NCBI RefSeq assembly: GCF_014635065.1
Contig: NZ_BMCG01000002.1
Coordinates: forward strand, 372,001-436,000
DNA from: Oxalicibacterium flavum
GTDB lineage: Bacteria > Pseudomonadota > Gammaproteobacteria > Burkholderiales > Burkholderiaceae_D
DNA: 64,000 nt
Direction of reading: 5' to 3'
In this document: in pieces, positions 43,035 to 59,295 of the stretch
Layout: every line of letters begins with the position of its first letter
How positions within the stretch are numbered: the stretch's first letter is position 1
The notes under the pieces: model-generated
Database searches by the model: none
Seen by the model: only the letters and a program-made list of their open reading frames with translations
Told to the model about the DNA's origin: nothing
Translations under genes and position numbers: made by a program

Positions 43035-43144
43035 ATTTGAACCACAACTCGTATTTCAACAATTAGCAACAGTTTGAAAAAGCTTAGGATTGAACGTCCT
43101 ACTTGTGTCATTCTCATGACTACTCGGCTTATCGCATTTTCCTC

Positions 43145-44116
43145 ATGCCCGTACTTCACTCTGATCGCCGCTTTGTCTTGAAGTCACTGCTTGCAGCGAG
43201 CGCCGTCTTTTGTCTGCCATCATGCATATCCGGAACACATTTCGACGGTAGCTTTCTGCAACTATGGCCTAGCCATCTGGACTTGCCCCCAAATGCATGG
43301 AAAAAACGCTTCGATATATTGCGCCAAGCGCAATGTCAGGATCTTTTTGTACAGTGGGTAGGGATAGAAGATGGAAATAACTCTTGGCGAGCATCCCAAG
43401 CCTTCATGGACATGCTCTTTGACTTAGCTGGAGAAAGAAGTATCGGCTTACATCTGGGCCTGCCCTACCATCAGAATTGGTGGGCAATTCTGAAAGCAAA
43501 GGACTTTGCCGAATTAGATACCTTCTTCGCTCAAACGCTAAATAGCGCCACCCGTTATATAGAAGAGTCCCCATTAAGCAGTCATGCAAATTTTCGCGGC
43601 TGGTACATTCCCTACGAACTGGAACAATACCACTGGGGCACAGCATCTTCCCAAGAAAAATTGATTCCTTGGCTGCAATCACTTTCAAATATCGCCACGA
43701 CAGACAAAGGTTTGCAACCAGCGATTTCAACTTACTTCAGCCAGCTTCCTACGGACGGATCGTTGGTCTCATTGTGGAGCAACATTCTTGATCACGCCAA
43801 TCTATATCCCATGATTCAGGACGGTGTTGGAGTGGCAGGGCTGGGCAACTATGAGGCTCTCGTACCGCTTCAGCAGCTATTTAATACGCGTCAGATCCGC
43901 TACGACCTGATCGTTGAACTGTTTCATCAACTTTCTGACGATACGAAACAAGAGAAATTTTTGGCCACTTCCGCTTCGCCATCAAGAGTACGGAAACAGA
44001 TGGAAGTAGCCAGTAGTTTCGGTGCAACCCGCATCGTTGCCTTTGCCATCGATCCATGGCTGACTGACGACACAGCGCCGGCACAGCGCTTAAGACAGGC
44101 GCTAATCAAAAATTAA
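43145..44116 (+). CDS. DUF4434-type exported lipoprotein (TIM-barrel, glycoside hydrolase-like)
   Basis: The product of about 323 residues starts MPVLHSDRRFVLKSLLAASA. The signal has a twin-arginine-like RRFVLK segment followed by the lipobox LPSC. The mature part resembles DUF4434, a TIM-barrel family with possible glycosidase function (FDGSFLQLWPSHLDLPPNAW, FRGWYIPYELEQYHW). It is convergent with the exopolysaccharide operon, 18 bp between stops, and is the most AT-rich gene of the region. I recall that E. coli ybcH, next to nfrA-nfrB, encodes such a protein; that memory needs checking. A TTG start 14 codons upstream is possible; no good ribosome-binding site marks either. Confidence 0.7.
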   Translation: MPVLHSDRRFVLKSLLAASAVFCLPSCISGTHFDGSFLQLWPSHLDLPPNAWKKRFDILRQAQCQDLFVQWVGIEDGNNSWRASQAFMDMLFDLAGERSIGLHLGLPYHQNWWAILKAKDFAELDTFFAQTLNSATRYIEESPLSSHANFRGWYIPYELEQYHWGTASSQEKLIPWLQSLSNIATTDKGLQPAISTYFSQLPTDGSLVSLWSNILDHANLYPMIQDGVGVAGLGNYEALVPLQQLFNTRQIRYDLIVELFHQLSDDTKQEKFLATSASPSRVRKQMEVASSFGATRIVAFAIDPWLTDDTAPAQRLRQALIKN

Positions 44117-44134: not shown

Positions 44135-45268
44135 TCAAAGGCTTCGGCCGATAATTTCACGCATGATTTCACTGGTTCCACCAAAGATGCGCAAGGCCCG
44201 TGCATCCGCCCAGGCACGGCCGATATCATATTCCGCCATATAACCGTAGCCACCATGCATCTGCAATAACTCGTCCAGCACCTTGCCTTGCAACTCCGTC
44301 GCGTTCAACTTCGCCATGGCTGCAATGGTTGGATCTAGGTCACCCTCCATATGCTGCCGCAGGCAATCGTCAAGAAATATGCGCAGCATGGTACTTTGGG
44401 AAAATGCATCGGCAAGCCGAAACCGCGTATTCTGATAATCGATCACACGACGGCCGAAAGCCTTGCGAGTACTGGTGTATTCGACGGTCTTGAGCAGCAT
44501 ACCTTCCAGTGAGGCCGCCGCCCTCAAAGCGATAGCCAAACGCTCCTGCGCAAGTTCCCGCGACATGTATTCAAATGCCGCGTTCTCTTCGCCCAACAGG
44601 TTATCGGCCGACACCCTTACATCGTCAAAAAACAGTTCACATGTATCTTGCGCATGCTGCCCGATTTTGTATAAGGGTGAGCCTTTGCTAAATCCGGAAG
44701 CATGCGTTTCAACGCAAAACAACGACAATCCTCTTGCTCCAAGGTCAGGATTCGTACTGGCGACGACCAGAACGAGTCCTGCATTGACACCATTTGTAAT
44801 GAAAGTCTTCTGACCATTGAGTATGTAATGCTGGCCGTCTTTTCGCGCCGTCATGCGGATGGCCTTGAGATCACTGCCTGCTCCGGGTTCTGTCATGGCA
44901 ATGGCGCCGATCAATTCGCCGCATGCCATGGGAACCAACCATCTGTTTTTCTGCTTTTCCGTCCCGTAGGTATGCAGATAGGGCGCGACCATATCTGAAT
45001 GGATCGAGAATCCCACTCCCAGACAATTATTGCGGGCAAGTTCCTCAATAACCACCGCGGCATGGCCGAAATCTCCACCGCCGCCATACGGTTCGGGCAG
45101 CGCACAATTAAGCAGCCCTTCCGAGCCAGCCCTGCGCCATAGCTCCGGAGGCGTAACACCGGCTTGCTCCCAAGCGGAATAATGCGGCAGAATCTCGCGC
45201 TTAACAAAGCGATGCACCTGCTCACGAAAATGTTCGTGGTCATCACGAAAAACGGGACGCTTGCTCAT
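44135..45268 (-). CDS. Acyl-CoA dehydrogenase-family flavoprotein, last gene of the exopolysaccharide operon
   Basis: The 377-residue FAD enzyme has the family signatures AMTEPGAGSDL and FITNGVNAGLV, and a C-terminal FGGTSEIMREIIGR. The usual medium-chain catalytic Glu (YEGT) is Gly here. A Glu in the ELAQERLAIALRA helix fits the base position of long-chain and isovaleryl-CoA dehydrogenases, so the enzyme is probably active. Carrier-protein dehydrogenases such as prolyl-PCP dehydrogenases use the same base position. Its ATG overlaps the algF-like stop (ATGA). Linkage to a carrier protein and an adenylating enzyme suggests action on a carrier-bound acyl group. Ordinary fatty acyl-CoA oxidation is the alternative. 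Confidence 0.85.
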   Translation of the reverse strand: MSKRPVFRDDHEHFREQVHRFVKREILPHYSAWEQAGVTPPELWRRAGSEGLLNCALPEPYGGGGDFGHAAVVIEELARNNCLGVGFSIHSDMVAPYLHTYGTEKQKNRWLVPMACGELIGAIAMTEPGAGSDLKAIRMTARKDGQHYILNGQKTFITNGVNAGLVLVVASTNPDLGARGLSLFCVETHASGFSKGSPLYKIGQHAQDTCELFFDDVRVSADNLLGEENAAFEYMSRELAQERLAIALRAAASLEGMLLKTVEYTSTRKAFGRRVIDYQNTRFRLADAFSQSTMLRIFLDDCLRQHMEGDLDPTIAAMAKLNATELQGKVLDELLQMHGGYGYMAEYDIGRAWADARALRIFGGTSEIMREIIGRSL

Positions 45269-45936
45269 TTCTTGAACGCTTCAGTACGACTGATTTGACC
45301 ATGCAGAACCGGCTTCTTGTTTGTGCCAAGCATGAAGAAGCTGTAATGATCTCCGGGCCTCAATTCTGGCAGTTCAACGACATTCGACATCGCCTCATCA
45401 CATCCTGCATTCAACTTTGCAGACACGGGATTGACGTCTCTCTTGATCGCATTCCCTTGTTTCACTTCCTTGAAAAGCGCGGTGGCGGAAGGCACGATTT
45501 CCAGACGACCGACAGGACAAGCAGACGCCAGATTATAAAAATGCAGCGTCGCCTTGAGGCCATCCTGCCTATCATGGGTATCATCCAGCACGTCGAAGAT
45601 CAGCCGCCCTTCCCGTTGCTTGGGTACCAGCGTCACATAGGTACCAGGCTTGACGGGAACATTGGCCGACTGACCATTGAGTGTCACATTGACATCGCCA
45701 CTTTTGCGAACGATCGCATAGTCGCTAACGATTTGATGCCTTTCCAACTTATTTGGTGCGCCGCTCGCAATTCTGATCTGCAATACGGAAGAATCCATGT
45801 TCACCACTCGCACAAAGGAGGAACCCGCGGGTGGCTTGGCTGCATATAGTTGCGCCAGCGCTCCTTCGGCCATAACCCATGGCGTCGCAGTCATGCCTGC
45901 CACCACGTACAGCAGTCGCTTCCAAATATGATTCAT
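45265..45936 (-). CDS. algF: AlgF-like periplasmic polysaccharide acylation protein
   Basis: The 223-residue protein has a signal peptide (ending PWVMA). It then has the AlgF hallmark LYAAKPPAGSSFVRVVN, a GTYVTLVPK strand, and the later INPVS-like block DVNPVSAKLNAG. AlgF is a periplasmic protein required for O-acetylation of alginate, and WssG is its counterpart in acetylated cellulose. Here it overlaps both neighbours by 4 bp, the DltA-like gene upstream and the dehydrogenase downstream. This ties the acylation machinery to amino acid activation. Confidence 0.82.
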   Translation of the reverse strand: MNHIWKRLLYVVAGMTATPWVMAEGALAQLYAAKPPAGSSFVRVVNMDSSVLQIRIASGAPNKLERHQIVSDYAIVRKSGDVNVTLNGQSANVPVKPGTYVTLVPKQREGRLIFDVLDDTHDRQDGLKATLHFYNLASACPVGRLEIVPSATALFKEVKQGNAIKRDVNPVSAKLNAGCDEAMSNVVELPELRPGDHYSFFMLGTNKKPVLHGQISRTEAFKK

Positions 45937-47402
45937 GCATTCCTCGATTTTTGGGAAAGATAGGTCTGTTTATACAACTGCTCCATCTGCTTTCTATCGA
46001 CCTTGTCAGTAACGGTAATAGACAATTGCTCGCAGGCGAGCAGTTCGGAAGGCACCATGTATGGCGGTAAACGCATTGCCAGAATCTCCCTCCAATTCGC
46101 CAGGCATTCAGGAAGAGCCGTGCCGTTCCCTTCCTCGGTATCACGCAACTCGACGAACCCCACGAGCCTGACTATCGTCCCTTCGGGACGACGCAATGCT
46201 ACTGCCACACCGGCCCGAACCGATGGCAACGCCGACAAAGCCAGATCAATTTCCGCCAGTTCTATACGATAGCCATGGAACTTGATTTGATCGTCCATCC
46301 TGCCGCGGAAGGTCACCAATCCGTGGGAATCCATTTCTCCGATGTCCCCAGTCCGATAGCCGCGTTTACCATCCCGCACAAACATGCGCGTCTGATTCAG
46401 ATCTGAGCGATTCAGATAACCACGCATTACATGATCGCCGGCGATGCAAATTTCACCTTCATCGATGAAGACGGTGGCATAGGGCTTGGCTCGTCCTATG
46501 GGGAAAGGATTCGGCAACGTGTCACGCAAAGTCTTGTCCACCTCCACCCAAGTGGTGGAGCAGGTCGCTTCTGTTGGACCATACGAATTGATGATGCGTG
46601 CTGCTGGAAAACGAAGCCAGATTTCATCAACAAGGGCAACCGACAAGGACTCTGCCCCAAACAGAAAGACGCGCAAATCCGGCATTTTCTCTTGGCAGAA
46701 ATCAGGGTCGATCAGTTGCTGGCGCAGGAAGGACGGCGTGGAAGCCCATACCGTCGCACGGCTGTGAGCAAGATAAGCAAGAAAATGATCCCGGCGCGCA
46801 ATGATCTCCCGCGAACACAATACACATGCGCCACCCGTAACAAGCGCCCCCACCCAGTTGAACAGCGAGAAATCGAAGCTGAACAGCATTTGATCCATGA
46901 AGACCGGCCGCTCTCCCAAGGCCAGGGAATGCAGAATCCAGCCTGCGAACAGACTGACGCTTTCGCGACCGATCTGAACGCCCTTGGGATCGCCCGTGCT
47001 ACCGGACGTAAACATGATGTACGCAACACCCTCTTCTTCCAGACGTGCATCCTGGTTCACAACGCCTTCGAAACATTCCAGCTGCGCATCGTAACGCAGG
47101 GACGTTTTCAACAATGAGGAAATACGCGCAATACGTTCGTGAGGATTGATGACATCGACCGGAACAAACGGCACTTTCATCATGAGGCAACCGAGCATGG
47201 CGATCAGAAAAGCAGGCTCCTTGTGCCCCGTAATGAGCAGAGGCGCTCCGGCAAGGACGCCAGCCGCTTCGGCCTGACGCATCCAGTCATCCGTTGCCTG
47301 TTGCAACTGTTGCCAATCGAGCGAGCCGGAAGCATGTACCACAGCCTGCTCATCGACCATCGCCTCACCGACAAACTCGAATCGGTCGAAATCAAAATGC
47401 AT
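45933..47402 (-). CDS. DltA-like amino acid:carrier protein ligase (adenylation enzyme)
   Basis: The 489-residue enzyme would activate an acid as its AMP ester and load the adjacent carrier protein. It has the P-loop FTSGSTGDPKG (132-141), NSYGPTEAT (272-280), YRTGD, and the catalytic Lys near 467 in DKVDRK. Blocks ITGHKEP, VPVDVINPHERIARI and TVWASTPSFLRQQ match DltA, the D-alanine ligase of teichoic acid alanylation. Asp177 matches DltA Asp197, which binds the substrate amino group. Gly249 replaces the DltA Cys269 that selects D-Ala (B. cereus numbering from memory). The substrate is therefore probably an amino acid, but not certainly D-Ala. AAGGG precedes the ATG. Confidence 0.85.
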   Translation of the reverse strand: MHFDFDRFEFVGEAMVDEQAVVHASGSLDWQQLQQATDDWMRQAEAAGVLAGAPLLITGHKEPAFLIAMLGCLMMKVPFVPVDVINPHERIARISSLLKTSLRYDAQLECFEGVVNQDARLEEEGVAYIMFTSGSTGDPKGVQIGRESVSLFAGWILHSLALGERPVFMDQMLFSFDFSLFNWVGALVTGGACVLCSREIIARRDHFLAYLAHSRATVWASTPSFLRQQLIDPDFCQEKMPDLRVFLFGAESLSVALVDEIWLRFPAARIINSYGPTEATCSTTWVEVDKTLRDTLPNPFPIGRAKPYATVFIDEGEICIAGDHVMRGYLNRSDLNQTRMFVRDGKRGYRTGDIGEMDSHGLVTFRGRMDDQIKFHGYRIELAEIDLALSALPSVRAGVAVALRRPEGTIVRLVGFVELRDTEEGNGTALPECLANWREILAMRLPPYMVPSELLACEQLSITVTDKVDRKQMEQLYKQTYLSQKSRNA

Positions 47403-47663: not shown

Positions 47664-47691
47664 TACTTTTCTCCAAATAGGAAATTCAAAA

Positions 47692-49269
47692 CTAGAATTG
47701 AAAATAAAGAAACCTGGCTTCCTTGTGCAGATTGATCAAGCACAGGAATAACAGGAACAACATCACAAGCAGCCACTGCCATGTTGGCTGCCATTGCATG
47801 AAGCGCCATTTCGCATTTCCTGTCTTGAACAAAGCTGGAGAGTATTCCCCCATGATCTGATGCGCGTTGGGAAAGAACCATGCAATCGACAGGAAAACAA
47901 CGATATAGATCAGTTGCTGATGCTGCCCTAGCATCCATCGCCAGGCATCGGCTGCAGGCAGATCCGCGAAATACGCCCAGGTTTCCCAGGATTCGAATCC
48001 ACGCAGGCCTGCCATTCCCTCCAACAAGCTGCAAGCATCGCCAACGCCGTGCGCACGAAAAAATACCTGCGCCACCAACACCGCAATGAACGTCAGCAAA
48101 ACGCTGGCGGCATGATTGCGCCAGTTGACCTTGCGCGCGGCAGGTTGACGACCGACGAAGAAAATTCTCCATGCATGATTGATCGACAGATAGGCAGCAT
48201 GCAGCAAACCAAACACCAGATATTGCAAACCGGCGCCATGCCAGACTCCGGCCAGACCCATGGTAAAAACCGTCGGAAATACGATCGTGCTGACAAATCC
48301 TCCGAGGGTGCGAACACCCGCCGTTCCTACCGGCAGGCCACGTGCTGTCCGCCGCCGAGAAACCGCCATGGCGACCGGATAATACAGATAAGCAGTCAGA
48401 TAGCGTGTCAGCGTCATGTGCCAACGCGCCCAGAAGTCGATAATGCTGGCAGCCTTGTAAGGCGAGTTGAAATTCAAGGGAAAACGGATGCCGAACATCC
48501 TGGCCAAGCCCAGCGCCATGTCTGAGTAACCGGAAAAATCGAAATACAACTGCAACGCATAGCAAAGAATCGCTGCCCATGCACTCCAGAATTGCAAATC
48601 GCCTGGTGCGGCGAATCCGGTGTCTGCATAGGGAGCAATGCTATCGGCTAACAACACCTTCTTCGCCAGACCGATAACGAACAGCATGCCGCCAGCAGAA
48701 AGATTCTCGGCCTTGAATACATAATTCTCACGTTGCGCGAACTGCGGCATCATCTCTTTGTGATGCAGAATAGGACCGGCGATCAGATGCGGGAAGAAGG
48801 TGACGAATAGCACGTAGCTCAACAGGCTTCGTTCATTGACGATACCTGCACGGCAATCCAGCAGATATCCGAGCTGCGTAAAGGTAAAGAACGAAATACC
48901 CAATGGAAGGATGATGTCTTCAAGCGGTGCATCCGTCACTCCCAGCCCATTCAGAAAAGCCAGAAGGGTAACGAAGTACTTGTAATGGAACAACACCAGA
49001 AGGTTGACAAAAACTGCCATTCCAACCGTCCAGTTCTGTAGTGTCGTACGGTTTCGTAACGCCAGAATGGCGAGGCTAATCAAATAGTTGAACAAGATCG
49101 AACCGGCCAGCAGCACGACAAACTGCGGATTCCACCAACCATAGAAAACGAAAGACGTCAGGCACAGCCAGACCGCTGCAAAACGCAAATTGATTCTTCC
49201 CGCGACGTAATGCACGGTCAGCGTGACCGGCAGAAACACCAGAAGAAAGAGATAGGAGTTGAAAAGCAT
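47692..49269 (-). CDS. algI: MBOAT acyltransferase, AlgI/DltB-like
   Basis: The 525-residue integral membrane protein starts MLFNSYLFLLVFLPVTLTVH and has about ten or more hydrophobic helices. It has MBOAT landmarks: FSGYSDMALGLARMFG, FWARWHMTLTRYL, and the invariant active-site His in GLAGVWHGAG. AlgI, WssH and DltB pass an acyl group from a cytoplasmic donor across the membrane to periplasmic or extracellular transferases. Here the likely donor is the thioester on the neighbouring carrier protein. The gene starts 12 bp after the AlgJ-like stop, without an obvious Shine-Dalgarno sequence (only an A-rich leader). Confidence 0.92.
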   Translation of the reverse strand: MLFNSYLFLLVFLPVTLTVHYVAGRINLRFAAVWLCLTSFVFYGWWNPQFVVLLAGSILFNYLISLAILALRNRTTLQNWTVGMAVFVNLLVLFHYKYFVTLLAFLNGLGVTDAPLEDIILPLGISFFTFTQLGYLLDCRAGIVNERSLLSYVLFVTFFPHLIAGPILHHKEMMPQFAQRENYVFKAENLSAGGMLFVIGLAKKVLLADSIAPYADTGFAAPGDLQFWSAWAAILCYALQLYFDFSGYSDMALGLARMFGIRFPLNFNSPYKAASIIDFWARWHMTLTRYLTAYLYYPVAMAVSRRRTARGLPVGTAGVRTLGGFVSTIVFPTVFTMGLAGVWHGAGLQYLVFGLLHAAYLSINHAWRIFFVGRQPAARKVNWRNHAASVLLTFIAVLVAQVFFRAHGVGDACSLLEGMAGLRGFESWETWAYFADLPAADAWRWMLGQHQQLIYIVVFLSIAWFFPNAHQIMGEYSPALFKTGNAKWRFMQWQPTWQWLLVMLFLLFLCLINLHKEARFLYFQF

Positions 49270-49281
49270 TTTATTTATTTT

Positions 49282-50331
49282 TTATTGCCGTGCTGCGAGT
49301 GCTGCACGCTCAGCCTCTGTCAAAGGCAGTGAAAGCGCCAATTCGGAAAACTCCCAGATCACCAGTTTCAGAGTGGATGGCCATGAGCTTTTCTGTTTCA
49401 AGGCTTCTTGCAACGCTCCGGAGAACTGCCCGCCATCCATGCTGATGTTCCATACCTCGCGCCCCAGAGCCATGCCAAGGTGTTCGGCAAAGTAACTGCG
49501 CCGACCATTGGAACTACCCGCCAAGAGAACCTCTGCCGCAGGGCCGTCATCCAGAAGTCCGCCGCCACGTACAACACTTATCGGTTGCTCGGATACCACG
49601 TCAAGTTTGGGCCGCCATTTTTCCGGAGCATTCTCCAGACCGGCAAGAACGATCAGATCACCCATGCGAGGACGAAGAGGTTCAGCCTCTTCAAACTTGA
49701 ACAGCTGATTGCTACGTCCCTTCAGCAGGACAAGTGCCTCTTCTGCCACACTAGCTGCAGCAATCCGTGCGCCAACAGCATTCATGTGCGCATCGGTCCG
49801 AAAAAAAAGTGGTTCGTTCGCCTGCAACATGGCTGGACGCAAATCGGCAAAAGGCACCCCGTCCTTTTTCAACTCAGCCTGCCATTCGTCCAGTTTTTGG
49901 CGCATGGACTCAGACACAGACAAGCCGCAAAGATGCGCCGACTCGACACGCGATTTATCAGGAACGGCGACGACAAGAATCTGCACGCCCTGCTGTCTGA
50001 TCTGGCTGATCCAGATACGCATGAGTTGCAACCGCTCGGCCAGCACGCTACCCGCTGCAGGTTGCAGCCCATCCTGGTAAAACAACCATTGCGGGCAACC
50101 CAGTCTCACCTTGCTTCCGAGATCTCCCAGAAAGCGATAGCGCCATGCGGCATTCCAAGTATTGATGCTGTCCTGCATTGGCAAGCGCAAAGACGAATTC
50201 AATGCCTGAGAAACAGTCACGCCGCCACCTCCGGCTACAGCACTGACTATCAGCCATGTGCTCCAGAGTAGCCCTGCCAACAGCAAGCCAGCTATTGCGC
50301 CAGCTATCAAGCGATGCGATTTACCGACCAT
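49282..50331 (-). CDS. AlgJ-like membrane-anchored SGNH acyltransferase
   Basis: The 349-residue protein starts MVGKSHRLIAGAIAGLLLAG with one N-terminal membrane anchor, so the enzyme faces the periplasm. It keeps the catalytic Asp-x-His (RTDAHMN, Asp180 and His182) and a Ser in LLAGSSNGR (Ser273/Ser274), the triad of AlgJ, AlgX and WssI proteins. It is predicted to take the acyl group from the MBOAT protein and pass it to the polymer or to the AlgX-like partner. The ATG at 50331 overlaps the AlgX-like stop by 11 bp; an earlier ATG at 50352 lacks a ribosome-binding site. Confidence 0.82.
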   Translation of the reverse strand: MVGKSHRLIAGAIAGLLLAGLLWSTWLIVSAVAGGGGVTVSQALNSSLRLPMQDSINTWNAAWRYRFLGDLGSKVRLGCPQWLFYQDGLQPAAGSVLAERLQLMRIWISQIRQQGVQILVVAVPDKSRVESAHLCGLSVSESMRQKLDEWQAELKKDGVPFADLRPAMLQANEPLFFRTDAHMNAVGARIAAASVAEEALVLLKGRSNQLFKFEEAEPLRPRMGDLIVLAGLENAPEKWRPKLDVVSEQPISVVRGGGLLDDGPAAEVLLAGSSNGRRSYFAEHLGMALGREVWNISMDGGQFSGALQEALKQKSSWPSTLKLVIWEFSELALSLPLTEAERAALAARQ

Positions 50332-51340
50332 GATCCAGTTTGACCAATGCATCGTTTACGCGAGCAGCCCATTGCGCAGGAGGCATCAAGGACCCGCTGT
50401 CCCAGCTTCCTGTCGCATCCGGGCCTTGGCTGAAAACCGGATCGAAAATCTGCCATAACAGAACTTGGGGTGGTGACTTTCTAAACTCATCGGATTCCAG
50501 ATATTCCAGCAGTACCATCCATGGGCCGACATTCCCTGGTTTCCAGTTCAATGACACCGGGCGATCAAGCGCTTGGGACAATTTCTGCGGAAAGCCGAAA
50601 TAAGGCTGCACCATGCTGTGTCCGCTAATATGCACGGGAGATGGGCCACTTTCATCAAGCAACTCTCCGGCTACGCTGCGCCGTGTGGTATACGTCTCGC
50701 GTCCTATCTGCTTGCGCTCTTCCGGAGAAAGGAACAACTCCGCAAGATCGCCAAACCGCCTTTCCCTGACCTCTGCTCCCAGTTGCAAACCGGTTCCAGC
50801 CTTCCCCTTCAGTACCGGTATCTGCTTCTTGATGAATTCAGCACTCGCTACCGCAGTCGCTTCTGCTGCCGGCAAAGTCCAATGCTGATCCGAACGGTAA
50901 TAAGCAGGAACACCTTTCTTCTGCTCAGCTTGCAGCAAAGCCTTCACATCCAAAATCGGCATTCCGGCCGCATCCAGCTTTTTCAAGATCGTTTCATACC
51001 TACCCAACACCGCGGGGCTGACCTGACGGTTTGCGGGCAATTTGTCCTGTGCGAAATAGACTTTGTCGGGGAGCAGTAATACCTCAAGACGCACTCCCCG
51101 CTCAGCAAGTGCATGACGCACAAAAGCCAGGAGCTTGACGGATGCATCGATTCCGTTTTCATCCAATACCGTCAGGCTGCCCCAACCCGGGAATAGCCAT
51201 CCCTCATTTCCTTTTATTACCAGTTGTGTGGAGTTCTGAGGAGAAACAGGATCTGCCTGCACACCTATTGCAGCCGCACTCAGTACGCAGGCAATCAATG
51301 CACGGTATAAAAACATGGGCATGGAAAAAGGAATTGTCAC
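50321..51340 (-). CDS. AlgX-like periplasmic SGNH acyltransferase
   Basis: The 339-residue protein has a signal peptide (ending AIGVQA). An SGNH-like domain follows, with KGNEGWLF, the catalytic Asp-x-His in YYRSDQHWT (Asp151, His153) and Ser242 in HISGHSMVQ. These match AlgX and WssF, which attach acetyl groups to alginate or cellulose in the periplasm. The start is a GTG at 51340 with GGAG 6 bp upstream. The carbohydrate-binding domain of AlgX is not evident. It is the first acylation gene after nfrA in the operon. Confidence 0.85.
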   Translation of the reverse strand: MTIPFSMPMFLYRALIACVLSAAAIGVQADPVSPQNSTQLVIKGNEGWLFPGWGSLTVLDENGIDASVKLLAFVRHALAERGVRLEVLLLPDKVYFAQDKLPANRQVSPAVLGRYETILKKLDAAGMPILDVKALLQAEQKKGVPAYYRSDQHWTLPAAEATAVASAEFIKKQIPVLKGKAGTGLQLGAEVRERRFGDLAELFLSPEERKQIGRETYTTRRSVAGELLDESGPSPVHISGHSMVQPYFGFPQKLSQALDRPVSLNWKPGNVGPWMVLLEYLESDEFRKSPPQVLLWQIFDPVFSQGPDATGSWDSGSLMPPAQWAARVNDALVKLDHGR

Positions 51341-51364
51341 GATATCTCCGCAATGTGCTGTTGC

Positions 51365-54118
51365 TTAATAAGAAAACGTCATGTTCATGAACAGGCCACG
51401 TGCACGGCCTGCATCGCCGCCTCCGATGTTGATGCGATATTGCAAGGTCCAATCGATATACGAGCGTGGTGCGTTATAGCGGTCCTCACGGAACCAATAG
51501 CGCACATTGATACCAGGACCTGCTCCCAATGCCCAACTGGAACCATTGCCCTGAAGAGGCACGTCTCCGCTCAGGTTTGACGTATTCAACACTGCGCGAT
51601 CCCTCTGCCATAACCAGTCGATCCCCCCAACCACGTAGGGAAATACAACCAGCCGCTCGCTGAGATCATCCAGCCGCATACTGCGTCCCACCCTGACTTC
51701 CGCGGCAGCGAATGACTGATCCTGTCTCAGTCTTCCGGACGATTCAGACTGCACAACATTCGTTGACGAATTTGTTTCCCGGATACGTATTGACGAATTT
51801 CCAGTGATATAACCCGCCTGCATGTAACCTTCCATCGTCCACCAGCTCCTCTCATCCATGCGCAAGCCGGTCCCTTCGTAGAATCCATAGGTCATGTAGG
51901 CCATCCAGTTACCACTTGAACTGGAGGCTTGGTAGGGATAAGTGAGATTCACGCTTTGCAGGGCGCACCTTCTATCCACATCGGATGGAATGATCGTTCC
52001 ACGCCGAGTGGCATGTCCGAGATTAAAGCGGCGCTCCAGTCCGAAGGTGAATCCGGAACTGGTTGACGGAGTCAGCCGCGCCCCCAGCGCGGCTACTGTT
52101 GTCGGCCATCCTGCCAAGCCATTCCCTTGTGACTCCGCAATGGCAAGCGATCCATTACCACATGGATTCGAAATGGTTTGTGCATCGGTGCGGCCGCCTT
52201 CGTCGTACAACGTGTTCGACAAACGACCATATATTTCAAAGACACGCGTGGAAGTATTGAGAAAGTCGGCAGGACGCCAATAGGCTTCGGCTGTGCCGAA
52301 AACGGCGTTTCCCGGCACCGTGACAGCAGCTCCGGCAGCCCCCGAAGAAGCCGGCCTGGCACCGCGATAACCGACGGAATAGGATGCCCCCCATTCGCGC
52401 GACAAGCCTGCAATACCAGCTCGAGTGTTGTAGCGTTGTTCTTGCGTCAATGGCAGATGACCATCGTCCGCCTCGTCAATAGCGTGCTTAAGTGCGTCGA
52501 CCGCCATTTGCTTGTTCCCCACTCCTGCAAAGGCGTAAGCCTCATCGATCACCAGTGTCGGAGGCGCCTTTCCCGTCGCGCGCGCAGCCTTGAAGTCCTG
52601 CAGCGCCTGACGCGGCTGTCCTAATCTTTGCGATAAATAAGCGCGTTGAATGAGAAGATTCACGTCGTCGGGCTTTTTCTCCAGTGCCTCGATCAGCATG
52701 CCTTCTGCTTCCTTCTGCTGAGTTGCATTTCCTGCGCTCAAGGCAGTCATCAGCAAACGCTGATTGTCCACATTGTCAGGCTGCTCCTTGACAGCCTGAC
52801 GAGCATATTCAATGGCCTGCTGATACTGTTGACGTCCGTAGGCGATATATGCCATCGCTGCAGATCCACTTCCTTCCACACCATCCCAGGGCTGCATCTC
52901 GCAAACGGTACCGTAAGGCGTAGCGCGGCATACCTGGAACGGCGCCATGTAGGCAGCGGCAGACAGATCGACCTTGCCACGCTCCCTCCGAGCCGCCTGG
53001 CGGCGGCGCTCAGCTAGCTCATCGTCCTTGGGCAAAAACGACAACAGGCCCAACGCACGTTCTTGCCGGCCGGAAGCGATCGCGGCATCGGAAGCCAGCA
53101 GACGTACATTGCGTACCTGTGTTTCATCCAGCCAGTCCAGTGCGAGTACCGCATCGAAATCCTCATCGGCAGCTTGATTGTCATGCTTTCGTTGTCTTAC
53201 ATACGCACGCAATACTTGTACCGCAACGCTTTCATCATCGATATCAAGCGCATCTGTCGCAGCCTGTTCAGCCTCCGCCAGACGGTTCAACTCAACTAGA
53301 ATGGTTACCTGAACCAGTCTGTAATTGAGAGAATCAGGCGCCAATGCAATAACCTTGTTTATCAAGGAAAGTGCATCTTCCAAGCGCCCATTCATCAATG
53401 CGCCATGCGCCTCTTCCGCAGGACGAATTGCCATTGAACGCCTTGCGTTACGCTGCCGTGCTTCCAGGTCCGCCCGATTGGGTGCACCGGCATCAATGGC
53501 TTTCTGGGCAGCCGCAGCCGTCTGTTCATACTTTTGTTGAGCATCCAGCGCGTCCAACCATAAAAGCGCCCAGTTTCCTTGAGAAGGATCGGTCAGATAG
53601 GCAACTTCCGCATCGCGGCTTGCATCCTCAAACCTTTGCTGATTGAATGCATCGTAAGCACGAGTGGCGATCGGAAACGCCTTGCGATATGCAGGTGTAT
53701 CCGTGCTTGATCCGCCTCCGGAAGCGGAAAGGTTGTTGCGTGCCTGAAGTAACTGAGAATTACCCAAACCATCCTTGATGGCTTGCTCCACGACTGCATT
53801 CGCCTCGACCAGCTTGCCTCGTTTCTGCAGAATGAAAACCAGCAACAAACGCAGTCTCGCAATGTCCGGGCGCAGACGAATTGCCCGTTCGGCTTGTGAT
53901 TGTGCGGATTGCAGGCGGCCGGCGTCGTAGTTCTTGTATGCCTGGTCTGCCAGACGCCATGCCTCCCCCGTAAGCGGCACTTCCTTGTTTCGTTTTTCCA
54001 CAACCCGCGTTGACATCAGCGAATCATCGACGACCTCGGCAAGGACAGAGTGCGAAGCGAACAACATACCAAGAACGAGTATGGAGATACCAAGCCAGCA
54101 AAAGCGAAATGAAGACAT
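51365..54118 (-). CDS. nfrA: NfrA-like outer membrane polysaccharide export protein with TPR domain
   Basis: The 917-residue protein has a signal peptide (ending SVLA). About 500 residues of tetratricopeptide-type repeats follow (for example AYKNYDAGRLQSAQSQAERA and YGRQQYQQAIEYARQAV). A C-terminal part of about 300 residues is typical of an outer membrane beta barrel and ends MNMTFSY. The arrangement matches NfrA, the outer membrane protein of the E. coli Nfr glycan system and receptor of phage N4, and is analogous to BcsC. The first base of its start overlaps the nfrB stop (TGATG), so translation is coupled. Confidence 0.85.
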   Translation of the reverse strand: MSSFRFCWLGISILVLGMLFASHSVLAEVVDDSLMSTRVVEKRNKEVPLTGEAWRLADQAYKNYDAGRLQSAQSQAERAIRLRPDIARLRLLLVFILQKRGKLVEANAVVEQAIKDGLGNSQLLQARNNLSASGGGSSTDTPAYRKAFPIATRAYDAFNQQRFEDASRDAEVAYLTDPSQGNWALLWLDALDAQQKYEQTAAAAQKAIDAGAPNRADLEARQRNARRSMAIRPAEEAHGALMNGRLEDALSLINKVIALAPDSLNYRLVQVTILVELNRLAEAEQAATDALDIDDESVAVQVLRAYVRQRKHDNQAADEDFDAVLALDWLDETQVRNVRLLASDAAIASGRQERALGLLSFLPKDDELAERRRQAARRERGKVDLSAAAYMAPFQVCRATPYGTVCEMQPWDGVEGSGSAAMAYIAYGRQQYQQAIEYARQAVKEQPDNVDNQRLLMTALSAGNATQQKEAEGMLIEALEKKPDDVNLLIQRAYLSQRLGQPRQALQDFKAARATGKAPPTLVIDEAYAFAGVGNKQMAVDALKHAIDEADDGHLPLTQEQRYNTRAGIAGLSREWGASYSVGYRGARPASSGAAGAAVTVPGNAVFGTAEAYWRPADFLNTSTRVFEIYGRLSNTLYDEGGRTDAQTISNPCGNGSLAIAESQGNGLAGWPTTVAALGARLTPSTSSGFTFGLERRFNLGHATRRGTIIPSDVDRRCALQSVNLTYPYQASSSSGNWMAYMTYGFYEGTGLRMDERSWWTMEGYMQAGYITGNSSIRIRETNSSTNVVQSESSGRLRQDQSFAAAEVRVGRSMRLDDLSERLVVFPYVVGGIDWLWQRDRAVLNTSNLSGDVPLQGNGSSWALGAGPGINVRYWFREDRYNAPRSYIDWTLQYRINIGGGDAGRARGLFMNMTFSY

Positions 54119-55821
54119 CAGGCAGCCTTTTCCTCAAGCATTGCATTGCTCAGGGAGAACCGCTCCTGCTCCATCACACCTTTCTGAAACGCGATCGCTT
54201 CCTCAAGCGTCGATTGATCCAGCCAGTTTTCTCGCATCATGATTTCACCCAGCGGCCGCTTCTCTTTTTCTTGTATTTCGAGCGCTTTGTTCAGGATGTC
54301 TTCATCAATGGCCTGCCAGGACAACAGCAGTTCGCCAAGGCGCAGCTTTTGTTGCGCAAGCTGATCTGTCGATGGGAAATCGTGCATGGTCTTGTCCCAG
54401 GCCAGCCGCTTGCCTGTAACAAGGTGCACAATAAAAAGACGCCACGCACGAGCTGCAGCCGCGGCGTTAATGAAGTTGCCAACGATCATGCGGGGAACGG
54501 AAAGCAAGGCATGCTCCCATCCATACATGGTGCCGACAAAGTAGGCACGTTGTGTGACACGCAAAAACAAGGCAAATGCATTGAGGCCCATCAGCGTAAC
54601 CAACCAGCCTCCTGGAGGGAAAACAGAGGGGTAATAGACGGTCCAGATACCAAGTTTATCGAGAACGAAGAACGCCAGAAAATTGGCCAGAAGGACATAA
54701 GCCAATATAGCCACGAAGGATGTCACCAGCCCTTTGCGATCGCGAAAAAGCAGGTATTTGACCGCTAACGAACCTTCCCATCCGACTTGCTGCCATCCCT
54801 GCAGGGCGATTCCCAAGGTCCATCGTGCCTTCTGTCTGTAAGCGGTGAAAAAGGTGTTGGGGAAATACTCGCGCACGCCCAGTGGCATGCGCAAGGTGGA
54901 CATCTGCTCTTTTCCAAAACCGAACAACGGATTCCGACGAACCAGATACTCGACCGGGAATTTTCCGAAAATCTGTTTCATGCCTCGACGTGCAAGGCGT
55001 GCACCAATGTCATAGTCCTCTGTTAGCGTGTCGCTGTTGAAAGGCTGATTATTCGTTTCCGCCGCCAGCTCTTCCATTGCCCTGCGCGAGAAGCAGGTGC
55101 CGACACCCGCCGATGGAACCATTCTCGACAGACTTTCACGAACGACCAAATCCTTGCTGTGCCACTCGGCAAATTCGTCCATGTACGTACCGGCCACCAA
55201 CTCATACCATTCGCGCTCCAACGATGTCACTGGCAATTGGATGAAATCGATGCGGGGAAGCAGGTAGTTGTAATACTTCAGTTCCAGCGGGTGCAGAACA
55301 TCTTCACTGTCATGCAGAATCATGCCGGCGAAAGGCTCGGATCGCCTGTCCCCCTCGGCAAAGATCGCCTGCACGATCCAGTTAAGGCAATCCGCCTTGC
55401 AGGTTGGTCCTGCGTGTGGCACTTCCACACGAATCAATTGCCGATAACGGCGACGCATGCGCTCGACTTCCTTGATGGTCCGCTCATCATTGCAATACGT
55501 TCCGACAAAAATCATGTAGTTCTTGTATTCGAGCGTCGACACCATGTTCTCAAGCATGGGAGCGATGACGTCAAATTCCAGCCAGGCCGGAACCATGATG
55601 GCAAGTGGCTGCTCCTCACGCGAGCGCAATTGCTCAGTTGTCAGTGCCGCATACCGTTTGCTGACCGTGAATTTTCGATAGACCTGCCGTACCCAGTACC
55701 AGACATCGATAAAAATGTCATCAAGACTCGAAAGCAGGATGACTACCCCTACCACGGCGGTAAGCAGCTCGAGGTAGTGGTAGTAATCGGCAATCAGGTA
55801 AGGCAAGTAAAGAGAAGACAT
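54118..55821 (-). CDS. nfrB: NfrB-like processive glycosyltransferase with C-terminal MshEN domain
   Basis: The 567-residue membrane glycosyltransferase (GT2 type) has Asp residues in HDSEDVLHP (171-174), TEDYD (267-271), and the synthase motif QKARW (330-334). About four membrane helices follow. The C-terminus has two 24-residue MshEN motifs, RLGELLLSWQAIDEDIL... (494-517) and PLGEIMMRENWL... (523-546), separated by exactly five residues. MshEN domains bind c-di-GMP, and E. coli NfrB is described as c-di-GMP controlled. Position 1 of motif II is Pro and position 10 is not Gly in either motif, so binding needs testing. The gene overlaps nfrA by one base. Confidence 0.9.
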   Translation of the reverse strand: MSSLYLPYLIADYYHYLELLTAVVGVVILLSSLDDIFIDVWYWVRQVYRKFTVSKRYAALTTEQLRSREEQPLAIMVPAWLEFDVIAPMLENMVSTLEYKNYMIFVGTYCNDERTIKEVERMRRRYRQLIRVEVPHAGPTCKADCLNWIVQAIFAEGDRRSEPFAGMILHDSEDVLHPLELKYYNYLLPRIDFIQLPVTSLEREWYELVAGTYMDEFAEWHSKDLVVRESLSRMVPSAGVGTCFSRRAMEELAAETNNQPFNSDTLTEDYDIGARLARRGMKQIFGKFPVEYLVRRNPLFGFGKEQMSTLRMPLGVREYFPNTFFTAYRQKARWTLGIALQGWQQVGWEGSLAVKYLLFRDRKGLVTSFVAILAYVLLANFLAFFVLDKLGIWTVYYPSVFPPGGWLVTLMGLNAFALFLRVTQRAYFVGTMYGWEHALLSVPRMIVGNFINAAAAARAWRLFIVHLVTGKRLAWDKTMHDFPSTDQLAQQKLRLGELLLSWQAIDEDILNKALEIQEKEKRPLGEIMMRENWLDQSTLEEAIAFQKGVMEQERFSLSNAMLEEKAA

Positions 55822-55824
55822 CTT

Positions 55825-58017
55825 TTACCCTTGCGACTCTTTACGCTTCCGTGATGCACGCCGGGCCAGAATCGCCAGCAGCAACAAGGCAAGAAGTCCA
55901 ATGCTGATTGCCGGCACGCTCCACGAGATGTAGCGACGCCATTCAAAGAAGGCGCTTTCGCCTGCACCTGGCGGATGGCTCGCATCCGGATTGGCGCTGT
56001 CAATCCAGGCCAGAGGGCCAGCGTCGCCTATGACTGCGATATTTCCGCGATTGAGAACAAACGGCACATCCGACCGCGCATTCTCATTGAGCAGCGCATA
56101 CCAGTAGAGTCCGGAATCTTTGCCGTCATCGATGACTTCTACCGTGCTCAGCTGTTCCACACCCTTGATGTCAAGAAGAGGGGCTTTTCTACCATCAACA
56201 CGTAACTCTTTGCCCCCGACAATCTGCACTTTGGGCTTGGCGCCGGAAACCGGCACTTCCATCGACAGGAATGGTCCCTTGGATTTGACGGAAGACTCAC
56301 CGGACGCGACGACGAATCTGGTGCCGGTAGGAGAAAGTCCGCTCGCCGAACCGATACGCACAATCTGCTTCAGGTGGGTTGGCGCAGACGCCAGATATTT
56401 TTCCGGAACAAAAAGCTGCGGGGTATTTGACAGCAAAGGCAGCAAGCCGATAAATGTGCCGTCCGGGTATGGATCTCCCAGCTTGATGTGACTGGAGGGA
56501 AGAACCTCCACTGGGTAACCTTGCGGAATCTCGTCACAGTTGGCCGATACAGGTTGACGCTGGAAGGAAACCTTCACCGAGTTTGTCACGCCGAGCACAT
56601 ATCCCGGCACACGCGCCGTCAGCCGTTCCGGACGGCCGTTAGCATTCAACTGTTTCGCGGACAGCAGAATGCCGTTCCAGAATACGGACACGACCGGCTT
56701 TGTCGTCGACGCGCTTGGCGCTGCTGCCACGTCGAGTACTAGCGTTTCCGGCATGCGCCCATCCAATGCCACTACACTCAACGGGAAGTTTGCCGTCCAG
56801 TCGCCGCGCGCCACGACATCAAAGTTATTGCTGGTGGCATCCAGGCTGGTCAGTCGCACGCTATTGGATTTAGCTTCATTGTCCGCTCTTGCGAGCTTTG
56901 CATCGACCTGTTCCGATACAAGTAGATTTCGCCACGTGCTGGAGAACACACCTGAAGCTTGTGCGCCGGCATTGTCGGCGATACCAATAATTTTCTGCTT
57001 GCCGAATGTCAGCAAACTGATCTGGCCGCTTTGCAATACGCTTCCAGCGGCAGTGGCACGATGCTTGCGCCACAAAGAAAACTCTTCCAGAGCAGCAGCA
57101 TCCAACGATAACTGCTGCTGCAACGCATCCAGAGCCGCATTCAGTTTTTTGTGCAGCGCCTCATCGACAATGGCCAATTCGGCCTTGATGGCTGGTGCAT
57201 TCAACACCAGTAAAGCGCCAAGCTCCGCAGGATTGGCGAGCTTGTGGCGCTCCTTGCCGCTTAACGCGGAAAATGCAGGGAAGCGCGTCAAGCCTGAAGG
57301 CACACTGACGCCCTTGAGATCAATCTCGCTGCCAACCGATGGCAATGCGCGGATATCAACCCGTTTGCCGTTTCTTTCAAGAGCTATACCGAGACGCCAA
57401 GCACTATCAAAACTCTTGGGTTCCAGTTTTTCATCAGCCACCAGCAACACGGGACGCCCAGGCAAGGTGCTCCATGCTTCCTTAAGGGTGGTAATCGCAT
57501 CGGAGTTGTAACGGTAGCTGATCACCGTGTCGTTTGACACGGTAAAGGAATTGGCAATCGAATTATTGGGAGAGCAACGATTGAAATGCGTCATTGCCTG
57601 CCAATCGACCGACAGCCTGACAAAGCCGTTTCTATGAACACCGCCACTCAAAGCGAATGTCTTCTCCAGCCGCCCTTCTCCATCTGTAATTCTCTGGGCC
57701 CAGGTAGGCTGCCCATCCAGAGACAAAACCAGCGTTGCCGGTTCCGGTTCGCCTTTCAGATATCGGCCTGCAAATTGAATGTTGGCGTTCGAAAGCACGA
57801 CGCCGGCAGGAACAGGCAAGTAGAAATCCTGGTGTGCATTGCCATCCGCCAGCACGATCGGTGCCGTAATGCCCAGATCCTTTAGCGTGATGTCTCTGCT
57901 GGCGAGTGTCTCGGTGCGCAATTCACGCAACGATTCACTGGCAGGGCTGGCCATTGTCAGACAAGGAATCAGCAACAGCGCTGCGCCCAACCCACGATAT
58001 ATCTGCCGACTACTCAT
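55825..58017 (-). CDS. BcsB-like periplasmic polysaccharide synthase subunit
   Basis: The 730-residue protein has a signal peptide (ending LTMA). Two BcsB-type repeats follow, each a carbohydrate-binding-like beta domain followed by a ferredoxin-like domain (DFYLPVPAGVVLSNANIQFA, TLVLSLDGQPTW). A single C-terminal membrane helix (AISIGLLALLLLAILARR) and a basic tail end it. BcsB guides the growing polymer through the periplasm beside the synthase. The start at 58017 has GGAG 6 bp upstream. It is 4 bp from nfrB, so BcsB and NfrB probably form the inner membrane synthase complex. Confidence 0.85.
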   Translation of the reverse strand: MSSRQIYRGLGAALLLIPCLTMASPASESLRELRTETLASRDITLKDLGITAPIVLADGNAHQDFYLPVPAGVVLSNANIQFAGRYLKGEPEPATLVLSLDGQPTWAQRITDGEGRLEKTFALSGGVHRNGFVRLSVDWQAMTHFNRCSPNNSIANSFTVSNDTVISYRYNSDAITTLKEAWSTLPGRPVLLVADEKLEPKSFDSAWRLGIALERNGKRVDIRALPSVGSEIDLKGVSVPSGLTRFPAFSALSGKERHKLANPAELGALLVLNAPAIKAELAIVDEALHKKLNAALDALQQQLSLDAAALEEFSLWRKHRATAAGSVLQSGQISLLTFGKQKIIGIADNAGAQASGVFSSTWRNLLVSEQVDAKLARADNEAKSNSVRLTSLDATSNNFDVVARGDWTANFPLSVVALDGRMPETLVLDVAAAPSASTTKPVVSVFWNGILLSAKQLNANGRPERLTARVPGYVLGVTNSVKVSFQRQPVSANCDEIPQGYPVEVLPSSHIKLGDPYPDGTFIGLLPLLSNTPQLFVPEKYLASAPTHLKQIVRIGSASGLSPTGTRFVVASGESSVKSKGPFLSMEVPVSGAKPKVQIVGGKELRVDGRKAPLLDIKGVEQLSTVEVIDDGKDSGLYWYALLNENARSDVPFVLNRGNIAVIGDAGPLAWIDSANPDASHPPGAGESAFFEWRRYISWSVPAISIGLLALLLLAILARRASRKRKESQG

Positions 58018-58080
58018 GAACTGCTCCAATACAAACATACACACTCGATTTTTCAGGAATGAGTGAATGACGAATCAGGT

Positions 58081-59223
58081 TTAACTACCGGTAAATTCCG
58101 ATACAGATCGCCCACACAACGCGTCCACGATTCTGGTACTGGCATTGCCGTCGCCGTAGGGATTCATGCGCAAACAGACGCTGTCATAGCGCTTCCGATC
58201 GTCCAGCAACGCATTGACTTCGGTGACGATCCTTTCATGAGACGTCCCCACCAATGTCACCGTACCTGCGGCGACTGCCTCCGGCCGCTCCGTTACTTCC
58301 CGCATGACCAGAACCGGCTTCCCAAGGTAAGGCGCTTCTTCCTGCACCCCACCGGAATCGGTCAGAATGATGCTGGCTTGCTGCATGAACCAGACAAAGT
58401 CGAGGTAATCCAAAGGGGCGATCAAATGCACATTCCCCAAGCCTGACAACTTCTCTCTGACGACATCGTTCACATTTGGATTCAAATGGACCGGATAGAC
58501 GATCTGTACGTCATCTCGCCGAGACAACTGATGCAAGGCGGTACAGATATTTCGGAAGCCGTCACCGAAACTCTCACGGCGATGCCCAGTGACCAGTAAC
58601 AGGCGACGGTTACGATCGATCCATGAATACTTTTCTTCGAGGGGACGCAAAAGGCTTTCATCTTCCGAGAGCCTGCGGCAAGTCATGGCAAGGGCATCGA
58701 TCACTGTGTTGCCTGTGATGAAAACCCGTCCTTGCAAGTTTTCTTTCAGCAGATTGTTTCGCGACGTTGCCGTAGGGGCAAAAAGCCATGTAGCCACGGT
58801 ATCGATAAAACGTCGGTTCATCTCTTCAGGAAATGGCAATGCCATGTTCCCGGTTCGCAACCCAGCTTCCACATGTGCGATTGCGATATTTCTATGAAAG
58901 GCGGCCAAGGCACAGGCGGAAGCTGTCGTTGTATCGCCATGTACCAGCACGACATCCGGTTGCTCCGCCATCAGGACCGCATCGATCTTTTGTAGCAAAC
59001 TGGCGAATAGGCCATTCAGCGTCTGATTACGCACCATCAGGTTCAAGTCATGGTCGGCCTGCAGACTAAACAGTCGCATTACCTGATCCAGCATTTCTCG
59101 GTGCTGTCCGGTTACGCACAACCTGCTTTCCACTCCACCCGCTTCCTTCAACAGGTGAACTAGAGGCGCCATCTTGATTGCCTCTGGACGCGTGCCAACT
59201 ACCGAAAGTATTTTTATTGCCAT
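58081..59223 (-). CDS. wecB: WecB, UDP-N-acetylglucosamine 2-epimerase
   Basis: The 380-residue enzyme converts UDP-GlcNAc to UDP-ManNAc. It has the N-terminal ILSVVGTRPEAIKMAPL, Asp in VHGDTTTAS, Glu in HVEAGLRTG, PFPEEMNRR, the active-site GHRRESFGDGF, and the UDP-binding SGGVQEEAPYLG. It is the first gene of the operon. E. coli WecB is reported to provide UDP-ManNAc for the Nfr glycan, which supports a ManNAc-containing polymer here. The ATG at 59223 (MAIKILSVVG) is preferred over a GTG seven codons upstream. No wecC follows, so ManNAcA and enterobacterial common antigen are unlikely. Confidence 0.95.
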   Translation of the reverse strand: MAIKILSVVGTRPEAIKMAPLVHLLKEAGGVESRLCVTGQHREMLDQVMRLFSLQADHDLNLMVRNQTLNGLFASLLQKIDAVLMAEQPDVVLVHGDTTTASACALAAFHRNIAIAHVEAGLRTGNMALPFPEEMNRRFIDTVATWLFAPTATSRNNLLKENLQGRVFITGNTVIDALAMTCRRLSEDESLLRPLEEKYSWIDRNRRLLLVTGHRRESFGDGFRNICTALHQLSRRDDVQIVYPVHLNPNVNDVVREKLSGLGNVHLIAPLDYLDFVWFMQQASIILTDSGGVQEEAPYLGKPVLVMREVTERPEAVAAGTVTLVGTSHERIVTEVNALLDDRKRYDSVCLRMNPYGDGNASTRIVDALCGRSVSEFTGS

Positions 59224-59267
59224 AAGCCGCTCAACGAATTTCACTTATGGTCGATATAGCGCACCCG

Positions 59268-59295
59268 ATTAAAGGAGGATAAAAAGCCATATCAA
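59268..59295 (-). promoter_or_regulatory. Candidate promoter of the exopolysaccharide operon
   Basis: On the minus strand, TTGATA (59295-59290) and TTTAAT (59273-59268) are separated by 16 bp, about 45 bp before the wecB ATG. It is the best sigma-70 type match in the region but not strong, consistent with an activated or conditional promoter. The nearest palindrome is centred about 50 bp further upstream. Confidence 0.4.

Follow-up and report, generated by a model that had tools for sequence, protein, structure and literature searches.

A short-form NfrB synthase of Oxalicibacterium flavum with a C-terminal MshEN_N domain, a BcsB-like partner and a putative polymer-decoration cassette

Introduction

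In Escherichia coli, the proteins NfrB, NfrA and YbcH, together with WecB, are associated with the NGR polysaccharide, i.e., the receptor of phage N4, and NfrB binds bis-(3′-5′)-cyclic dimeric guanosine monophosphate (c-di-GMP) through an MshEN domain with a dissociation constant (Kd) of 1.0 μM (PMC8669469). The principle of a c-di-GMP receptor other than PilZ in such a synthase was published in 2021. This report describes a relative of this protein, encoded by the nfrB gene of Oxalicibacterium flavum, along with the operon around it, both contained in a stretch of 64,000 nucleotides (contig NZ_BMCG01000002.1, positions 372,001 to 436,000, hereafter the window). The window NfrB is a short-form member of this known kind, and its operon very probably makes and exports an exopolysaccharide of the NfrBA kind, of N-acetylmannosamine (ManNAc) type, under c-di-GMP control exerted via a C-terminal MshEN_N domain.

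Several described systems are close to this one. In Achromobacter xylosoxidans, nfrA, nfrB, wecB, a BcsB homolog and O-acetyltransferase homologs are clustered, and the same work reports that the position-3 glycines of the NfrB MshEN domain matter for infection by phage N4, with the E. coli variant G491L abolishing, and G519S partly abolishing, killing by the phage (PMC8669472). The linkage of nfrB to wecB and, in Simplicispira, to alginate-type acetylation genes has also been noted (PMC8669469), and an Acinetobacter locus with NfrB-like, BcsB and WecB proteins was identified as a phage receptor (PMC12507263). Regarding the domain itself, the position-3 glycines of MshE provide backbone hydrogen bonds to the bases, its G11 and G40 variants bind c-di-GMP poorly or not at all, and its isolated MshEN_N sub-domain binds with a KD of 0.35 μM without MshEN_C, while the MshEN domain of XpsE, in which both glycines are gone (G11V, G40L), has lost binding (PMC5013675). 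The GSPII-C domain of PilF, whose motif II starts with Pro, binds with MshE-like affinity, and a domain with Lys and Leu at position 1 binds more tightly than MshE (PMC11731258).

The O. flavum locus shares with the E. coli system a family 2 glycosyltransferase (GT2) with a C-terminal MshEN, an NfrA exporter, a DUF4434 protein and the dependence on a UDP-ManNAc epimerase; the E. coli NfrB differs in being a protein of 745 amino acids (aa) that has MshEN_C as well as a second, degenerate pair of motifs, and neither BcsB nor decoration genes belong to its operon. With the Achromobacter nfr cluster, the locus has in common the order wecB-bcsB-nfrB-nfrA, a short NfrB (at most 82% identical) and, for some of the species, the decoration cassette, but that cluster lacks the upstream palindrome discussed below (none of the 80 named loci). 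The Acinetobacter locus, termed PGR, likewise has an NfrB-like synthase, homologs of BcsB and WecB, and an exporter, but the word "MshEN" is absent from its main text and the parts of that paper that were covered describe no decoration cassette (PMC12507263). The BcsA-BcsB cellulose synthase offers another parallel, namely a synthase with a c-di-GMP-binding C-terminus (predicted in our case) and a partner of BcsB fold, even though the receptor is PilZ there and MshEN here. Finally, the domain has two 24-residue motifs, a five-residue spacer and position-3 glycines as in MshE and PilF, but it is fused to a glycosyltransferase and MshEN_C is absent. The less familiar aspects of the locus are therefore its minimal sensor, a decoration that is possibly new, and an operator that may be shared with other genes.

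NfrB as a short-form synthase

The genes and sites considered are collected in Table 1. NfrB matches the NCBIfam model NF012033 with 929.9 bits (cut-off 537) and has a Pfam GT2 match, and its TED (T267, E268, D269) and QxxRW (330-334, with Q330, R333 and W334) motifs are invariant in an alignment of 27 proteins (A1). When its predicted model (m28351cc7422a) is searched with Foldseek, the best matches are BcsA and hyaluronan synthases, and a VIA comparison gives a similar picture, with resemblance to a mannosyltransferase, a hyaluronan synthase and BcsA; this last comparison is uninformative for residues 494-546, because almost every row of it stops before them.

All comparisons use 80 relatives from named genomes, taken as the best among 362 candidates found with one query, and all counts describe such close relatives only. 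Their NfrB proteins fall into 62 short forms (559-578 aa) and 18 long forms (702-738 aa), the latter having a weak second motif pair close to the C-terminus. On a tree of 91 proteins, built with a quick method from the first 485 residues and containing many weak forks, the short-form label changes twice, as against a mean of 22.9 after shuffling. In view of these two results and of the overlap of the nfrB stop and the nfrA start (TGATG), we rejected the idea that the short protein results from a frameshift or break in a long form; it ends 21 residues past the motif pair, and nfrA and wecB are linked to its gene. On its sequence, it is best assigned as a short-form NfrB relative of the NF012033 type, and not as an equivalog of the E. 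coli protein (NF008411).

The MshEN motifs

The initial annotation had placed two 24-residue MshEN motifs, exactly five residues apart, at residues 494-517 and 523-546. These coordinates are borne out by NF053729, an NCBIfam model of the c-di-GMP motif related to MshE, which matches precisely 494-546 (48.5 bits, E 5.4e-13, cut-off 38 bits) and recognizes all 27 proteins of A1. Scoring was done at 11 positions per motif, following a 24-position reading of the consensus printed in PMC11731258: motif I gives 9 and motif II gives 5, for a total of 14 out of 22, compared with a maximum of 12 in 2000 shuffles of the NfrB sequence and with values of 7-10 for 11 other proteins of the cluster. The motif pair is thus real and not due to chance. 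Moreover, a phmmer search of solved structures with residues 489-550 has as best matches the PilF domains annotated as c-di-GMP-binding (E 2.7e-5), and the AlphaFold model displays four helices (495-501, 507-520, 524-530 and 536-546), in a block whose predicted local distance difference test (pLDDT) values are mostly 83-89.

The position-3 glycines, Gly496 and Gly525, are invariant in all 80 relatives, and NfrB also retains the Arg that starts motif I and, in each motif, the Gln at position 24. The initial annotation had listed as deviations Pro at position 1 of motif II and the residues at position 10 of both motifs; these were found as described, but the list was incomplete, given that motif I also departs at position 11 (Ala), and motif II has Met at positions 6 and 7, Trp at 11 and Ile at 21. 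Pro at the start of motif II occurs in 77 of the 80 relatives, and position 10 of motif I is Gln in 53 of them, Arg in 24 and Gly in none, so that both features are family traits; since Pro is the family norm, its reading as a sign of lost function was rejected. An Arg at the first position of each motif, which NfrB lacks on account of this Pro, is not a strict requirement because PilF domains without it bind. At position 10 of motif II, the relatives have Gly (79) or Asp (one), and Asn532 occurs in the window NfrB only; among the positions named initially, it is the only one peculiar to this protein.

In E. coli NfrB, the Pfam family PF05157 covers only residues 542-628, after the motif pair, and since this part is absent here, the short NfrB keeps MshEN_N only. 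We therefore assign its C-terminal region as MshEN_N, by profile and glycines and with the Pro deviation stated, and not as a full MshEN with MshEN_C.

Control by c-di-GMP

Because the isolated MshEN_N of MshE binds at 0.35 μM, the one of the short NfrB should suffice. The deviations described above are tolerated elsewhere, as PilF binds with Pro in motif II and Gln stands at position 10 of motif I in E. coli NfrB; indeed, the comparison with E. coli NfrB proposed in the initial annotation reveals in that protein also a Pro at position 1 of motif I and a spacer of four residues, and yet it binds c-di-GMP. By analogy, we expect binding by the window NfrB, possibly weaker. The idea that an MshEN receptor stands in place of PilZ in a synthase with a BcsB-like partner, put forward initially, is supported and offers the best reading of the locus, although its principle was already in the literature. 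It does not extend to the whole genome: elsewhere it encodes a true BcsB along with PilZ proteins, among them an 881-codon frame bearing PilZ, and therefore MshEN is not the genome-wide replacement of PilZ. There are 22 GGDEF matches in the genome, none of them inside the window.

The operon would work as follows. WecB would supply UDP-ManNAc, and NfrB would polymerize the sugar derived from it and pass the chain across the inner membrane, with c-di-GMP on the four-helix bundle of MshEN_N switching synthesis on, as it does on PilZ in BcsA. The BcsB-like protein would cap the synthase on the periplasmic side, NfrA would export the chain, and the products of the downstream cassette would decorate it. 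The gene content and linkage, the identity of the domain, its conserved glycines and the BcsB fold of the partner support this scheme directly; binding of c-di-GMP, activation by it, and ManNAc as the substrate are suggested by the published work on homologs, while we infer both the contact between NfrB and its BcsB-like partner and the decoration of the polymer.

A number of observations weigh against this scheme. NfrB reaches only 581 bits against NF008411, whose cut-off is 1170, the C-terminal part being absent, and it has no match to PF05157 at E values up to 1; the confidence of the prediction is low for the linker 474-493, so that domain contacts cannot be read from the model; the window NfrB has the lowest motif score of the 81 proteins (14 out of 22, with the 80 relatives at 15-19), and Asn532 takes the place of a turn glycine kept in 79 of the 80. 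In addition, the chemical identity of the NfrB polymer was not found in the parts of the literature consulted. The low score and the private Asn would suit a remnant that no longer binds c-di-GMP and acts as a structural or docking module only, as documented for XpsE (PMC5013675), and two distant members of the family (L120, L121) are without any MshEN; but XpsE lost both glycines whereas NfrB keeps them, together with the Arg of motif I and the two Gln residues noted above, and the motif pair is kept in all 80 close relatives, which makes this explanation quite unlikely. It also seems unlikely that c-di-GMP is bound but governs assembly with the BcsB-like partner, or with a dedicated diguanylate cyclase, instead of catalysis. 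Here, one may point to the direct interaction of E. coli NfrB with DgcJ (PMC8669469) and to the palindrome that the operon has in common with two diguanylate cyclase genes of this genome, but the release of auto-inhibition, by analogy with BcsA, would be simpler.

Activation of the synthase through its own domain remains the preferred reading, and it suggests that, in a polysaccharide synthase with a BcsB-like partner, the four-helix MshEN_N can serve as the sole receptor for c-di-GMP. If so, the window NfrB would be a compact system for learning how an enzyme resembling BcsA is gated by a receptor other than PilZ.

The BcsB-like partner and the gene cluster

The identity of the 739-aa partner as a BcsB, already proposed in the initial annotation, is upheld by its fold and by its relatives. 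In a Foldseek search with its predicted model (mee36b43cd564, mean pLDDT 83.5), the top 22 rows are all BcsB, the best with an E value of 2.4e-25, even though the protein is only about 11% identical to solved BcsB. The Pfam family PF03170 (BcsB) matches 27 of the 40 members of the family alignment that were checked against Pfam, with a best E value of 6.7e-11; the window protein itself has no Pfam match, PF03170 included, at E values up to 1, nor an NCBIfam match. Likewise, phmmer and profile searches of solved structures retrieved nothing relevant with it, and fold comparison alone found BcsB. Accordingly, it is designated as BcsB-like only, on the basis of a model.

On the minus strand, from 59244 to 44135, the genes follow the order wecB, bcsB-like, nfrB, nfrA, two AlgX/AlgJ-like genes, and those for the membrane-bound O-acyltransferase (MBOAT), the carrier, the ligase, the AlgF-like protein and the acyl-CoA dehydrogenase, with several of them overlapping. 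The core wecB-bcsB-nfrB-nfrA is nearly constant among the relatives, with a BcsB relative beside nfrB in 78 of the 80 loci and wecB in 75, and the cassette downstream of it may be present or missing, even from one Achromobacter species to another. At the far end of the cluster lies a gene of the DUF4434 family (PF14488), which E. coli YbcH matches at 1.5e-69; its presence rules out the BcsB-like protein as a substitute for YbcH. Relatives of DUF4434 are found in 19 of the 80 loci, again on the strand opposite to nfrB.

Table 1. Positions in the window of the genes, the domain and the palindromes discussed in the text
Feature	Position	Strand	Evidence and remarks
YbcH-like protein (DUF4434)	43103..44116	+	PF14488 7e-46; convergent with the operon
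Acyl-CoA dehydrogenase family protein	44135..45268	-	PF00441/PF02771/PF02770; NCBIfam AcrC 270 bits and RedW 199 bits, both below the cut-off; 4-bp overlap with the algF-like gene
AlgF-like periplasmic protein	45265..45936	-	PF11182 3.9e-12
Adenylation enzyme, DltA-like, altered pocket (predicted)	45933..47402	-	DltA 3e7w 3.1e-74
Stand-alone acyl/peptidyl carrier protein, 79 aa	47424..47663	-	DSL motif; PF00550 4.5e-9
MBOAT, AlgI/DltB kind	47692..49269	-	PF03062 6.5e-19; TIGR04091 (DltB) 180 bits, below the cut-off of 375
AlgX/AlgJ-like SGNH acyltransferase 2	49282..50352	-	PF16822 1.9e-64
AlgX/AlgJ-like SGNH acyltransferase 1	50321..51340	-	PF16822 2.7e-59
nfrA, tetratricopeptide repeat and outer-membrane barrel export protein	51365..54118	-	Pfam NfrA_C 4.7e-28; start overlaps nfrB stop
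MshEN_N domain, NfrB residues 494-546	54184..54342	-	Motif I 494-517, spacer 518-522, motif II 523-546
nfrB, short form, 567 aa	54118..55821	-	Processive GT2 glycosyltransferase, transmembrane helices, C-terminal MshEN_N sub-domain; NCBIfam NF012033, NF053729, Pfam GT2
BcsB-like periplasmic partner, 739 aa	55825..58044	-	C-terminal transmembrane helix 700-738; Foldseek of the predicted model; PF03170 in relatives
wecB, UDP-GlcNAc 2-epimerase (UDP-ManNAc supply)	58081..59244	-	TIGR00236 461.5 bits, cut-off 210
Palindrome TTTCC-N4-GGAAA, three copies	59339-59352, 59458-59471, 59614-59627		Upstream of wecB

The decoration cassette

Besides making the polymer, the cluster probably decorates it in a chemically unusual way. 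Among solved structures, the ligase is closest to DltA (3e7w); the Asp responsible for binding the amino group is conserved in it, and Gly249 replaces the selective Cys of DltA (C269 of the B. cereus enzyme), the pocket residues of DltA being those given in PMC11253843. The NCBIfam cut-offs for DltA are not reached, and the ligase is not assigned as a DltA D-alanine ligase. The other places of its pocket are presumably occupied by Phe, Phe, Ser, Cys and Ser, according to the mapping that we assumed. From the kinds of genes and their linkage, we consider it quite possible, although tentatively, that the NfrB polymer is esterified by an acyl group derived from an amino acid, rather than or besides acetate. 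In this proposal, the ligase with its remodeled pocket would load an amino acid onto the carrier protein, the acyl-CoA dehydrogenase would, often among the relatives, oxidize the carrier-bound amino acid, and the MBOAT and AlgX/AlgJ-like proteins would transfer the acyl group to the polymer in the periplasm.

The comparison of relatives is based on tblastn matches at E 1e-4 within the available flanks, which are shortened downstream in L036, L071, L090 and L096 and upstream in L093; two weak ligase matches (L049, L106) were excluded from the pocket and locus counts. Of the 45 relatives bearing the ligase, 31 have the Gly pocket and 14 the Cys pocket. The dehydrogenase gene accompanies 26 of the 31 Gly-type ligases and none of the 14 Cys-type ones, a contrast that is confounded with phylogeny, with most Cys-type ligases located near the end of the available stretch. 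When the whole genomes of 10 of the 14 Cys-type relatives were checked, no dehydrogenase of at least 60% identity was detected. The same threshold returned none in the genomes of four Pandoraea Gly-type loci (best 34%), and for this reason the dehydrogenase is not obligatory. A Cys-pocket ligase and a carrier, with no dehydrogenase in the available stretch, occur in L064, L070, L076, L078, L079, L083, L086-L089, L091, L099, L105 and L109; the pocket of these relatives suggests a decoration of the D-alanine type.

A simpler explanation is that the cassette adds acetyl groups only, with the ligase, the carrier and the dehydrogenase as bystanders. It is described as acetylation machinery in both PMC8669469 and PMC8669472, and the MBOAT gene occurs without carrier or ligase matches in 8 of the 80 loci, including two (L036, L071) with short flanks. 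However, the carrier and ligase genes lie downstream of the MBOAT gene, on the same strand, in this locus as in the 31 relatives that share its type of ligase, and the dehydrogenase gene overlaps the algF-like one by 4 bp, so that we regard this explanation as possible but doubtful. Another option is that the three enzymes convert proline into pyrrole-2-carboxylate for the polymer, as in the synthesis of pyoluteorin and prodigiosin, a pathway which presumably uses the same trio of enzyme kinds. The dehydrogenase does match the models of prolyl-carrier dehydrogenases at 182-199 bits. Nevertheless, these scores are below the cut-offs, and the pocket (A, G, S, C, S) differs from that of L122 (Y, A, L, V, C), a ligase located beside a PigA-like dehydrogenase. 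With this PigA-like protein, the dehydrogenase of the cassette shares a Glu that we take to be the catalytic base of this sub-type. The comparison ligase came from one strong PigA-like match (450 bits), and its prolyl specificity is deduced from the neighboring gene; a phylum-wide search for PigA-like dehydrogenases yielded none above the cut-off in 398 genomes. The pyrrole route is accordingly very improbable, and an assignment of the PltF/PltE kind was set aside on the pocket residues and the cut-offs.

The ester with an amino-acid-derived group is still the reading that we favor for the cassette. No such decoration of the NfrB polymer was found in our literature searches, and the words "alanyl" and "carrier protein" are absent from the main texts of PMC8669469 and PMC8669472, the supplements being outside the search. 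If it is true, the cassette would combine elements of the Dlt and alginate-acetylation machineries and add redox tailoring, all acting on a secreted polysaccharide, and if the ester is an oxidized one, the surface modification would be new for a polymer that is a phage receptor in other bacteria. The presence or absence of the cassette among close relatives would then offer a handle on its effect on phage adsorption.

The upstream palindrome

The palindrome TTTCC-N4-GGAAA occurs three times upstream of wecB and nowhere else in the window, the chance expectation for a narrower form with one mismatch being 0.16. Its exact form, ATTTCCRYRYGGAAAT, has six sites in the genome, as against none for the reversed control: three are those upstream of wecB, one lies about 70-105 bp before ugd, whose start codon is uncertain, and two are found 78 and 85 bp ahead of genes for diguanylate cyclases with GGEEF. 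The site before the second cyclase is also 131 bp from a divergent rpiA-like frame. Within the genus, ATTTCCRYRYGGAAAT is present one to six times in 12 of 13 genomes, including that of the window, and the neighbors examined encode diguanylate cyclases, protein F of type II secretion/type IV pili and outer-membrane efflux proteins, as well as AraC-type, HDOD and Sel1 proteins. It is missing from the 80 nfr loci of other bacteria, and a literature search for the palindrome strings returned no related paper. Judging from this distribution, it looks like a candidate operator of a surface/biofilm regulon of the host, to which the island came to be adjacent.

The island at the bamD-yaaA junction

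From roughly 43 to 59.5 kb of the window, the GC content is about 53%, down from about 63%, and the nfr cluster is an acquired low-GC insert between bamD and yaaA (42985-59648). What lies at this junction varies across the genus. Among the 12 other genomes, no more than about 110 bp separate the matches to bamD and yaaA in five, a different insert of 16-32 kb separates them in six, and the two genes are on separate contigs in one. The two inserts that were detailed by gene (L142, L144) both begin with a very large protein, which in L142 is of secreted type, with RTX repeats, and precedes an ABC transporter and an outer-membrane efflux protein. A long-form nfrB, 61% identical to the one described here, is found elsewhere in the genome in two members of the genus. 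Finally, G080, a relative of the genus, carries at the same junction (L148:9996-13216) an MBOAT/AlgF/AlgX-like acetylation set with no nfr genes.

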